Both the position numbers and the translations under genes were made by a program. Positions 4,297 to 50,443 of a stretch of 64,000 nucleotides of DNA are shown here, piece by piece. The notes under the pieces were generated by a model, which did no database searches, was not told the DNA's origin, and saw only the letters and a program-made list of their open reading frames with translations. How positions within the stretch are numbered: the stretch's first letter is position 1; every line of letters begins with the position of its first letter. This DNA is from Phycisphaerae bacterium RAS1 (GTDB lineage Bacteria > Planctomycetota > Phycisphaerae > UBA1845 > Fen-1342). The DNA lies in contig SMLU01000001.1 in NCBI GenBank assembly GCA_007859745.1, positions 3,286,001-3,350,000 of the forward strand, in the 5' to 3' direction.

Positions 4297-4391
4297 GTGG
4301 CACCGGTTTTCAACCGACGTCTGTGTACATGTGGCACCGGTTTCCAACCGGTGTCCGTGCCGCTGGCACCGGTTGGAAACCGGTGCCGCAA
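4297..4391. repeat. Palindromic repeat family K
   Basis: Three units built from GCACCGGTTTTCAACCG or GCACCGGTTTCCAACCGGTG and their complements. Related copies are at 5056-5154 and 50388-50443. Confidence 0.85.
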
Positions 4392-4411: not shown

Positions 4412-4792
4412 TTGGGAAAACTGGCACTCGCGTGCAGCATCATTCCCCTGATTGGCTTCTACCTCTGCGCCACCTACTGCTGCGGTCACCCGCTGGCGGC
4501 GATCGGATCGGTGGCGACGGTCGGCGGGACGATCGCCGTGCTGGTGCTGGGGTTCAACGGGCTATCCGGGCGCGGGCGCGTCTTTGGCTGGGCGGCGCTG
4601 GCGATCGGGGCGATTGAGGCCGGGGCGGTGGCGTACTTCACGTATGGGCCGGGGCAGGATGCCTTCGTCGTCTACCACGATCACAAGCATGGGCATGGCG
4701 AAGCCGGCGGCGGGCGCACCGATGACCAGGTCCACGACCACGATCACGACCATGAACAGGAACAACCGGCGAGCAAGCCTGCGGGGGAGTGA
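4412..4792 (+). CDS. Small membrane protein with YCCGHP motif and His/Asp-rich tail
   Basis: A 126-residue protein starting at TTG, with AAGGAG six bases upstream. Two to three hydrophobic segments are visible (roughly 5-22, 28-50, 58-78). A Cys pair between the first two is in the motif ATYCCGHPLAAIGS (residues 22-23). The tail from ~90 is rich in His and Asp (HDHKHGHGE, HDHDHDHEQEQ) and could bind metal. I do not recognise the family. It is the Cys-containing paralogue of the next gene, 12 bases downstream; the two align over the whole membrane part, so they very likely form an operon. Confidence 0.75.
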   Translation: MGKLALACSIIPLIGFYLCATYCCGHPLAAIGSVATVGGTIAVLVLGFNGLSGRGRVFGWAALAIGAIEAGAVAYFTYGPGQDAFVVYHDHKHGHGEAGGGRTDDQVHDHDHDHEQEQPASKPAGE

Positions 4793-4804: not shown

Positions 4805-5047
4805 ATGGGCAAGCGAGCGCTGCTGCTGACGCCGGTACCGCTGATCGGCATGTACGTCTCGATGAACTACTGCTGAGGGCATCCGCTGGCGGCGGTCGGT
4901 TCGATCGCCCAGATCGGCGGAGTCATGGCCGTGCTGGGCATGGCGTTCAGCGGCATTTCCGGGCCGCAGCGGAACTGGTCACTGGCCGCGATGGTGATCG
5001 GGATTCTGGAGACCGGGGCGATTATCTACTTCTCATCGATGACGTAG
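4805..5047 (+). CDS. Putative selenoprotein: membrane protein paralogue with in-frame TGA at a Cys position
   Basis: Reading from ATG 4805 (AGAGG upstream) gives MGKRALLLTPVPLIGMYVSM then NYC, TGA (4874-4876), GHPLAAVGSIAQIGG and a further ~40 residues to TAG at 5045. The upstream paralogue reads TYC C GHPLAAIGSVATVGG, so the TGA replaces exactly the second Cys. The frame after TGA stays open, hydrophobic and homologous to the paralogue. Beginning 17 bases after the TGA, 4893-4898 pairs with 4902-4907 (CGGTCG/CGATCG) around a three-base GTT loop; position, size and the G at the loop start fit the general bacterial SECIS pattern. I infer an 80-residue protein with Sec24. The alternative is a recent nonsense mutation in an otherwise intact gene. 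Confidence 0.6.
4893..4907 (+). promoter_or_regulatory. Candidate bacterial SECIS stem-loop
   Basis: A six-base-pair stem (4893-4898 with 4902-4907, one G-U pair) with loop GTT. The loop begins 23 bases after the TGA at 4874-4876. The matching place in the Cys paralogue has a mismatch that breaks the stem. Support is structural fit only. Confidence 0.45.
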
Positions 5048-5055
5048 CGAAGCCT

Positions 5056-5154
5056 GTGGCACCGGTTTTCAACCGGTGCGTGTGTTTACGGGTCTTCGAC
5101 CCGCGCGTGTCGAAGGCCCGCTGAAACACCACCGGTTGAAAACCGGTGCCACAG
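5056..5154. repeat. Palindromic repeat family K, long inverted pair
   Basis: GTGGCACCGGTTTTCAACC at the left and its complement at the right, ~100 bases apart, with an inner inverted pair (GGGTCTTCGACCC, GTGTCGAAGGCCC). It lies between convergent genes. Confidence 0.85.
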
Positions 5155-5229: not shown

Positions 5230-8109
5230 TCAATCGCCGATCAGCAGCCGGAAGTCATCCGTGTCGGACGTCAGCGGCTCGGTCCGCTCATCGATCGTGT
5301 TCAGGAACACGAGCAACGCCAGGCGATCGGCCTCGCTCAGCGTCGCCGTGATCGAGCTGGCACCCAGCAGGTGCGTCTCAAACACATCCGCCAGCGTCGG
5401 CGCCGATCCATTGTGGAAGTACGGCGCGTGATACCCGACGCCGATCAGCGACGGGACGTTGAAGCCGACGCCGCCCAGCGCCACCGCCGCGTTCGCGGCC
5501 GCGTTGGCGCTCTGGTTGCGGATCTCGATCGGACTGGTCGCGTTAAACGTGCCGACGCCGTCCATGAACCTCAGCGAGGCTTCGTTGCCGGCGCCGCGGT
5601 TGATGGTGTAGCCGGTGATCTGTCCGCCGGCGCGATCGATGCCCGCGTCGCGCGGCACGCCGCCCGCGTTCGGGTCCTTGTCGAACGCCGGGTTGTTGGT
5701 GTAGATGATCTGGCTCTTGGTCCACTTCGCGCCGCCGTGACAGGAAGCGCAGTTGGTAATGAACGCGGCCCGGCCGGCGGACTCCAGCGTCGTGTCGGTG
5801 GCGGCCGGCATGATCGGCGAACGAACCGTCTGCACCCAGAGCGTCTCGAGATCGAGCGCATCGCTGGCGCCCTGCGAAATGCCGTGGTTGTAGATGTTCG
5901 GGTTCGGCGGCGTGCCGGCAAATCCCTTGCCGCCCTGCACCACGACCGAGTTTTCATTGAAGTCGGTAACGCTGCTGCGCACCGCGCTCCAGTTGCTGAT
6001 GCGCTGATCGGCCGGATTGTCGCGGGCAAAGAAGCTGTCCAGCGGCACGGTCTGCCGCGGGCCGGTGGCGAAGATCCACGTCACGCCGTCCGAGAGCCCG
6101 TCCGGATGGCACGAGGCGCAGCTCGACCAGCCGTTGTCCGACTGCTTGTTGCGGAACTTGAGCGGCTCGATTTCGCGGATCGGCGTGCCCAGCAGGCCGT
6201 TGTCCGCCACGCCCAGCGCGCTGTGGAAGACCAGCTTGCCGACCAGGACGCTGTGACTGAATGTGCCCGGCGCGGGCGGCTCGCTGTAGGCGATGTCGCG
6301 CGTCAGAACCGTGTTCGCGTCCAGATCCAGCGCCGAAACCGAGAAGTTCGCTTCGTTATTGGCGTACGCCCGCGTGCCGTCGTTGCTGATCGCCACGCCG
6401 GTAGGCAGGTTGCCGGTCAGGAAACGAATCGCCGGCGTGTCGGCGGCGGCGTTGATCGTCAGCACGCCGCTGCCGTCGAGATTTGCGCGCAGCACGTAGT
6501 TGCCGCCGCGGCTGACGATCAGGAACGTCGAGCCGTCCGCGGTCGCGTCGATGGCGACGATGTCGTTTCCGAACAGGCGCGTCAGGACGGTCGTCTCATC
6601 GGCCACGTCCGGCTGCGTTTCAACCTTGATCAGGTTGTTCAGATTGACGGTTTCGGCCGGCACTTCGGCGAGCGTCTCGGCGTTCACCACGTGCACCAGC
6701 GCCTGCACGTTGACGTTGAACTTGATCGGCGGCTCGGGCTGGGCGCCGATGTTCGGCAGATACAGCCGGCCGCCCCGCAGCAGCGCCGACTGGAACTGGT
6801 TCGGGTAGACCGCCTGCGGATTCTTGGCGATCACGTCGGCCGTCGCGTCGGCCGCGGCCGTGTCGGGACAGAACGTGTTGTTGGCGGCGGTGGCGTTGAA
6901 CTGCTGGCAGAAATTCTTGCGGTCCGCGGTAAAGCCGGAGTTGGCCAGCGGCGAGAGCGTGATGTCGGTGACGGTGCCTCGACTGCCGGCGTTGAAAGCC
7001 TGCACGATGCCTTCCTTGCCGTCGTCGAAGGCCTCGCCGTTGCCGCCCTCGATGACCTGCGCGTAGAAGCGCGTCACGAAGACAGTCTCGTCGGTGTCAT
7101 CCGCGTCGCCGTCGTTGGTGATGGCGATGGCGGTCGGGTTTCCGCCCGTGTTTACCGTGTCGATCACGGCCCGGGTGGCGGTGTCGATGACTGAGACGGT
7201 TCCCTGCGTGTGATTGGCGACGAAGAGCAGCGTGCCGTTGGGCGTCACGGCGCAGCCGCGCGGCTCGGCCCCGACGGTGATGGTGTCGACCACGCTGAAC
7301 TTCGTGGCGCCGGCGAGCGAGACGACTGAAACCGTGCCGCTGACGGTGTTGCTGACGTAGGCTTCGCTGCCGCTGGGGCTGAGCGCCAGGAAGCGCGGCT
7401 CAACGCCCACCGGGATTTCGGCCAGTTTCGTCGTCGTGTCCGCGCCCGCTGCGTTGCGCACTTCGATCACGGCCAGCGAGTTTGAATCGCGGTTGACGAC
7501 GACCACGCGCCGGTCGTCGCCGGTGACGGCGATATTCGTCGAGCGCGACTCGCCCGCGAGGCGCTCGCAGGCGTCCCCGGTGCCGTCGCCGTCGCTGTCG
7601 GCCTGGTCGGCGTTCGCATCATTGGGGCAGTTGTCGCAGGCGTCGCCGTCGCCGTCGTTGTCGGCGTCCGCCTGGTTTGCGTTGGCGTCATTCGGGCAAT
7701 TGTCGCAAGCATCGCCCACGCCGTCGTTGTCGCCATCCGCCTGGTCGGCGTTGGCGTCGTTGGGACAGTTGTCGCAGGCGTCGCCGATGCCGTCATCATC
7801 GCTGTCCGTCTGGTTCGTGTTGGCGTCATTCGGGCAATTGTCGCAGACATCGCCCACGCCGTCGTTGTCACTGTCCGCCTGGTCGGCGTTGGCGTCCTTG
7901 GGGCAGTTGTCGCAGGCATCGCCGACGCCGTCGCCGTCGGTGTCCGTCTGATCGGCGTTGGCGACCGCGACGCAGTTGTCCTGCTCATCGGCCACGCCGT
8001 CGCCGTCGGTGTCGTTGACCACCGGCGGGCAGCCGAGAATCGGCATCAGCAGGCCGAAGGCGCCAAGCGCCAAAGTGGAGAAAAGTCCGGGCCGCGAGAG
8101 TTGTCGCAT
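5230..8109 (-). CDS. Lipoprotein with TSP3 repeats, YVTN propeller and di-haem peroxidase-like domain
   Basis: A 959-residue protein. The start at 8109 follows AAGGAG and gives a lipoprotein signal (LLMPILGC, Cys ~27). Next come six or seven tandem thrombospondin type-3 Ca-binding units (DxDxDGxGDxCDNCPxDxN), then a YVTN-type beta-propeller ([39 protein letters not shown]), then a cytochrome c peroxidase/MauG-like C-terminal half with two haem motifs, CASCHPDG and [24 protein letters not shown] near the end is typical of the peroxidase family. By family it is a periplasmic or surface electron-transfer protein; the true electron acceptor is unknown. The frame stays open to 8406, but without a ribosome-binding site or signal. 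Divergent from the sigma gene. Confidence 0.85.
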
Positions 8110-8510
8110 GAGCAAGCTCCTTCCAAAGAGTGAAACCCGGTCAGCCATGTGCCGGGTCGAACGTCGAGGCAACACCGGAGTCAACGAATGCGGCCGGTCT
8201 CGAGCCGGCTTGCGTTCAGTTCCGCGCTTAGCAATGCAGTGCGCGCCGCCGACATCGGCGCGCGGCGTGGCTGCCGCGGCTGCGGGCCGGCATGCCCGCG
8301 AACCGATTCCTGCGAGGCGCCCGCGTTGACACTGCCACGATGCGAGACTGTTCACGGACCGCGATCTGAAAAAAACCCAGAGCGGGAGCGGTCCAGCGCC
8401 GAACACACACCGATGAGAGTATACGCGCCGTGGCGGACCGATCTGTCGCGCCGGGCGCGTGCAGGTAGAATAATTCCGAGAGCGGAATCGCTTCCGGGCC
8501 GCCGGCGCCC
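8110..8510. other. Divergent intergenic region, no gene seen
   Basis: About 400 bases between the divergent peroxidase-like and sigma-factor genes. It must hold both promoters, but I cannot point to convincing boxes. One hairpin (GCGCGCCG...CGGCGCGC, near 8239-8263) is visible. None of the dispersed repeat families was recognised here. Confidence 0.5.
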
Positions 8511-50387: not shown

Positions 50388-50443
50388 GACGGGTTGAAAA
50401 CCCGTCGAAACAGACACCGGTTGGAAACCGGTGCCACACAGGC
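50388..50443. repeat. Palindromic repeat family K
   Basis: GGTTGAAAACCCGTCGAAAC and CACCGGTTGGAAACCGGTG, just upstream of the island's first gene. The rest of the 50346-50608 gap shows no gene; GATTGTATCACCTTTCGCG near 50538 is a locally AT-richer stretch. Confidence 0.8.

Follow-up and report, generated by a model that had tools for sequence, protein, structure and literature searches.

A small membrane protein family of Planctomycetota whose in-frame UGA is very probably read as selenocysteine

Introduction

Does the in-frame TGA of a short gene in Phycisphaerae bacterium RAS1 end translation, or is it read as selenocysteine (Sec)? The question arises at positions 4805-5047 (forward strand) of a 64,000-nucleotide stretch of contig SMLU01000001.1, referred to here as the window, where a frame carries one internal TGA (4874-4876, codon 24) and closes with TAG. 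The original prediction, made from the letters of the window, proposed a selenoprotein lying beside its own Cys paralogue, with a SECIS hairpin downstream of the TGA. Here, we analyzed this gene, its hairpin, its relatives and the Sec machinery of the host, and weighed the functions that its product may have.

Results

The read-through translation of 4805-5047 comprises 80 amino acids with Sec at codon 24 (MGKRALLLTPVPLIGMYVSMNYCUGHPLAAVGSIAQIGGVMAVLGMAFSGISGPQRNWSLAAMVIGILETGAIIYFSSMT) and scored 87 bits against the family HMM. The TGA had been placed on the second Cys of the YCCGHP motif of the adjacent paralogue, and this was the case: the gene reads YCUGHP where the open reading frame at 4412-4792 reads YCCGHP. 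The predicted coding similarity past the TGA and up to the TAG was also found, with the read-through product 51-52% identical to that open reading frame. Downstream of the UGA, pN was lower than pS in the closest pairs of family members, indicating that coding constraint persists.

The Cys paralogue (4412-4792, forward strand) encodes 126 amino acids with an Asp/His-rich C-terminal tail and terminates with TGA; the Sec gene starts 12 nucleotides past its stop. It thus places a Cys at the UGA position within a tandem duplicate. In the family tree the paralogue was sister to the window Sec copy (support 100/98), and hence arose by local duplication, with Cys taking the place of Sec. At the position of the SECIS-loop Gly it carries GGA, compared with GGT in the Sec copy. 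Tandem duplication would thus have been followed by Sec to Cys replacement and decay of the SECIS.

A palindromic repeat of about 19 nucleotides, CACCGGTTTTCAACCGGTG, was observed at window positions 4301-4385, 5060-5148 and 50415-50433, clustered in the intergenic DNA flanking the Cys/Sec pair; 0.03 matches would be expected in the window by chance. The copies at 5060-5148 form an inverted pair just downstream of the Sec gene and may be a terminator or a REP-like element; they are not needed for Sec decoding. Perhaps the repeat is REP-like and linked to the local duplication. Adjoining the gene pair on the reverse strand (5230-8406) is a gene for a 1058-amino acid protein with thrombospondin type 3 repeats, a lactonase-type beta-propeller and cytochrome c-like domains, which was not a conserved neighbour.

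A search of 200 related genomes identified the protein in 25, and every match except the window paralogue contained one TGA at the matching site. The profile built from these matches (A1) detected the family in 50 of 397 genomes of the class, nearly all from one order, with TGA in all clear members but one. At the level of the order, 48 of 114 genomes carried a family gene, including one extra genome from the search of 200 relatives. A broader profile (A3) applied across the phylum added 11 genomes from outside the class, each of which had the TGA and a hairpin that could be recognised. A DNA-pattern scan for the motif plus SECIS in the genomes of 84,980 species gave 45 matches, comprising 42 true members and three chance matches; the pattern demands TGA and is therefore uninformative on Cys forms, whereas the HMM searches are not biased to TGA. 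Titled members from the scan were nearly all Planctomycetota, many of them labelled Phycisphaerae and one labelled Limisphaerales. Weak HMM matches in five genomes (G124, G178, G364, G386 and G353) were judged unrelated or unsafe and set aside.

Overall, about 70 distinct family genes were found, and the UGA was invariant in the collected set (66/66). Whether homologues carry Cys or TGA at this codon had been posed as a check on the original prediction; relatives carried TGA, not TGC, and the HMM searches of the order, class and phylum genomes found no Cys form other than the window paralogue at 4412-4792. TGA at one codon in about 70 genes, together with a covarying hairpin, is far beyond chance and bears out the reading of the TGA as a Sec codon over that of a nonsense mutation. 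One genome (L085) carried two tandem Sec copies, at 5998-6249 and 6374-6622, one with the altered motif C-U-V-P-P. The member on the contig labelled Limisphaerales (Verrucomicrobiota; L140) grouped among planctomycete members, through either mis-binning or transfer.

The putative bacterial SECIS spans 4891-4909 on the forward strand, with arms at 4891-4897 and 4903-4909 and the loop GGTTC (4898-4902) starting 21 nucleotides after the UGA. It forms 7 pairs around the pentaloop, or 8 pairs around a GTT loop if the G-C closes; the six-pair stem with a GTT loop 17 nucleotides past the TGA that had been predicted is the same element read from 4893. The isolated 21-nucleotide hairpin (-12.5 kcal/mol) gave the expected fold in the window and in nearly all members. 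Single-sequence folds longer than the hairpin gave competing, ambiguous structures, and the single-sequence MFE z-scores were weak (-1.79 for 49 nucleotides and -0.82 for 43 nucleotides) and were not taken as proof; the SECIS claim therefore rests on covariation and position. No SECIS model in Rfam matched the window element; the family-specific hairpin had to be demonstrated by alignment.

Covariance of the stem, another check proposed at the outset, was computed over 50 members found by HMM, and the stem was kept with compensatory changes. A five-pair helix (columns 20-24 with 30-34) was paired in 98.0% of cells compared with 87.9% in shuffled alignments, and its covariation score was 0.406 compared with 0.201 +/- 0.018 in shuffles (0 of 500 shuffles reached 0.406). 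Slid controls of the helix paired in only 26-58%. Column pair 20/34 was CG in 23 members and UA in 23, a split that partly tracks long versus short clades and so represents fewer independent events than the cell counts, while pair 22/32 was CG, AU, GC, GU or UG. In one member (L091) the stem was largely rewritten (GGCC-AGTTC-GGCC).

The codon of Gly32 (GGT, 4898-4900, forward strand) supplies the GGU on the 5' side of the loop. Among HMM-found members the loop Gly codon was GGT in 44 of 48, compared with 18% GGT in the long open reading frames of those loci; the remaining Gly positions of the family genes used mixed codons (14% GGT overall). Three members with Ser in place of the loop Gly retained the GT (AGT). 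The preceding Leu codon (Leu+7) was CTC in 57/57 genes, compared with 25% at other Leu codons, although this set includes 16 pattern-found genes in which the pattern itself fixed TCGGT. The bSECIS model specifies a hairpin 16-37 nucleotides after the UGA, a stem of 4-16 base pairs and G in the first two positions of the loop (PMC13188914); the window element, at 21 nucleotides with loop GGTTC and 7-8 base pairs, satisfies these constraints.

The host assembly (5.5 Mb, 99% complete) contained all four of selA, selB, selC and selD, for which a search had been proposed. We detected SelA (533 bits), SelB (322 bits across the whole frame; C1:3368039-3369931), a tRNA-Sec (67.8 bits; anticodon UCA) and SelD (380 bits; L174, G000:C2:159537-160460). 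SelD has an in-frame UGA at its known Sec site (ASCAG-U-AGKL); as it is itself a UGA-Sec gene, Sec is in use in the host genome, and SelD serves as an internal positive control. Across the order, a SelB match above the cut-off or a strong tRNA-Sec was present in 48 of 48 gene-positive genomes compared with 52 of 66 negatives, the other 14 having neither (Fisher P = 2.5e-4, without correction for phylogeny). Six gene-positive order genomes lacked a detected tRNA-Sec and two lacked a full SelB match; several of these are incomplete assemblies. A family of genomes (f4) in which most members lack Sec machinery had no copy of the gene.

The original description of the product as a small membrane protein was borne out by a confident AlphaFold2 model and by the positive-inside distribution of charges. 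With the family alignment as input, AlphaFold2 predicted three helices (residues 2-21, kinked at 8-9; 27-50; 56-79) at a mean pLDDT of 91, with C23-U24-G25-H26-P27 forming the turn between helices 1 and 2. Family members range from 50 to 90 amino acids, and the relatives of about 55 amino acids were modelled as a two-helix hairpin with lower confidence (pLDDT 73). Across the family, Lys and Arg made up 2.8% of residues in the CU turn, compared with 13.6% in the N-terminal part and 24.5% in the segment that follows helix 2, and the turn is accordingly predicted to lie outside the cytoplasm. Two members had longer products: in L129 (3696-4619, on a contig labelled Pirellulaceae) the CU membrane domain is extended in frame by about 290 residues beyond the Sec and gave a CarboxypepD_reg match below threshold, and in L167 (about 7132-7632) an in-frame zinc-ribbon-like stretch (CPECGRP...CQHCGC) precedes the CU domain, suggesting a fusion.

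Among the 66 members, Sec was present in 66, the next Gly in 64, a helix-1 Gly in 63, Cys in 60, Pro in 60 and His or Asp in 57, and the conserved residues past the Sec were G, H/D, P, L, G and G. As Sec was found in 66/66 and Cys in 60/66, Sec is the indispensable residue and Cys is optional. The predicted Cys-Sec pair was thus slightly overstated: Sec is invariant and Cys usual, but six of the 66 members lack the Cys. In these diverged members (L117, L120, L118, L125, L116 and L109) the residue just ahead of the Sec is not Cys (FGUG, FTUGP, VADVUC, CASUGG), and the Sec itself is retained.

Discussion

Taken together, these data make it very probable that the product of 4805-5047 is a true selenoprotein placed in the membrane, the window member of a new small inner-membrane family of Planctomycetota. 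That degree of confidence covers selenoprotein identity and membrane placement only; redox chemistry lies outside it. SelB and Sec-tRNA-Sec would bind the hairpin with the GGU loop and decode the UGA at codon 24 as Sec, and the ribosome would run on to the TAG. Two other readings of the codon are far less probable. One takes the UGA as a genuine stop, producing a 23-amino acid single-helix peptide followed by a decayed or separate frame, through nonsense mutation or regulatory read-through. The ordinary code does end the frame after 23 amino acids; however, the TGA is common to about 70 genes, the residues past it are conserved and constrained (pN < pS), the SECIS covaries and the Sec machinery is complete, which makes this reading highly improbable. 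A pseudogene, a nonsense mutation and a 23-amino acid peptide were each rejected on the conserved TGA and the conserved downstream protein. Equally improbable is a suppressor or reassigned tRNA that inserts a different amino acid at the UGA. Which amino acid is inserted does not follow from an in-frame UGA alone, yet the genome has a tRNA-Sec whose anticodon is UCA, the family keeps the SECIS, Cys occupies the UGA site in the paralogue, and UGA truly terminates both that paralogue and 30 of the 66 family genes; these terminal TGA codons rule out a genome-wide reassignment.

On the sequence evidence, this is a new protein family within the known class of bacterial selenoproteins. In Pfam and NCBIfam (June 2026) the window protein had no match at E values up to 1, and other members gave scattered weak matches. 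No entry fitted in the table of a 2026 inventory that covers 119 families of prokaryotic selenoproteins, the accessible part of the planctomycete selenoprotein study PMC4807772 makes no mention of the family, and no description was found in the main texts of the open-licence literature. The family was likely missed because annotation ends at 23 amino acids and finders based on Cys homologues have no query; the authors of deep-Sep noted that their method may miss selenoproteins that lack Cys homologues (PMC12013277). The family thus adds a selenoprotein that standard gene callers would cut to about 23 amino acids and exposes a blind spot of discovery based on Cys homologues.

No homologue of known function was found. 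Foldseek gave a best E of 1.8, and VIA a best Z of 7.9, to unrelated helical bundles among PDB folds; a PDB sequence search likewise returned nothing convincing and a plasmid search gave no match. No conserved gene neighbours were identified in as much as 6 kb of DNA on each flank, and no cluster occurred in more than 4 loci. The most likely function, which we infer with roughly even confidence, is an extracytoplasmic thiol/selenol oxidoreductase with a vicinal Cys-Sec pair. A redox centre best explains an invariable Sec that lies at the membrane surface, usually with Cys as its neighbour and with His or Asp two positions further along; the six members without Cys count against an obligatory Cys-Sec couple. 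The product would have three membrane helices (two in the relatives of about 55 amino acids), and the turn between helices 1 and 2 would display C-U-G-H-P on the extracytoplasmic face, as the predicted topology suggests. The selenolate may attack a peroxide, a disulfide or a quinone-linked oxidant, the adjacent Cys would then resolve the product by forming a selenenylsulfide, and the selenol could be tuned by the His or Asp that follows two positions later.

Two other functions would leave the protein a selenoprotein and change the role of its Sec. Tentatively, Sec and Cys may act as a soft-metal ligand, with the helix hairpin binding or passing Hg(II), Cu(I), Ag(I) or similar ions at the outer face, as in MerT. 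The protein is small with three helices, a profile alignment with planctomycete MerT puts CCxxPL exactly on C-U-G-H-P-L, the long Asp/His-rich tail of the Cys paralogue is suggestive only, and mercuric transport proteins include a known Sec-containing form of MerT (C/SxxU) (PMC13188914). However, homology to MerT (PF02411) was rejected on a non-significant profile match (hhalign probability 1.1%, E 0.051), the family lacks the second Cys pair of MerT, PF02411 had no match in the host genome, and neither mer genes nor other conserved neighbours surround the family loci (as much as 6 kb per flank). We regard as unlikely, though worth naming, a Sec that acts in a complex, in a small membrane subunit or a sensor, for example of periplasmic oxidant or selenium status. 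The very small size, the packed Gly/Pro-rich helices and the rare fusions (about 290 residues beyond the Sec in L129, the N-terminal zinc-ribbon-like stretch in L167) are consistent with such a role; conserved neighbour genes that would supply a partner are absent.

A broader proposal, whose chances we judge to be evenly balanced, is that 50-90-amino acid membrane selenoproteins, with Sec practically obligatory, occur across the phylum, perform an extracytoplasmic selenol reaction new among protein families and have been overlooked by annotation. A family in which Sec is so rarely exchanged for Cys points to a reaction for which sulfur is poorly suited, and the protein is of a size that allows direct study. 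The tandem pair in the window offers a natural experiment on Sec loss, in which TGA changed to TGC and the GGT of the SECIS loop to GGA, and the protein acquired a His-rich tail.

Compared with known systems, the family resembles MerT in its small size, its three membrane helices and, where the first helix ends, a vicinal C-C/U pair with xxPL after it. It differs in the position of Sec (C-U, compared with C/SxxU in Sec-containing MerT), and in having neither a second Cys pair nor a mer operon. Animal thioredoxin reductase carries a C-terminal GCUG motif, a vicinal Cys-Sec-Gly that forms a selenenylsulfide, on the tail of a large soluble flavoenzyme. The C-U-G of the family resembles this Cys-Sec-Gly, as a likeness for which homology is not claimed. 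Host SelD is likewise a UGA-Sec gene of the same genome, but an unrelated soluble enzyme. Unlike known bacterial selenoproteins, the family falls outside the 119 listed, has almost no Cys homologues and consists of membrane proteins of 50-90 amino acids; what it shares with those decoded through a bSECIS is the in-frame UGA, a loop that starts 21 nucleotides downstream and opens G-G-U, a stem of 7-8 pairs, and the presence of SelA, SelB, SelC and SelD.
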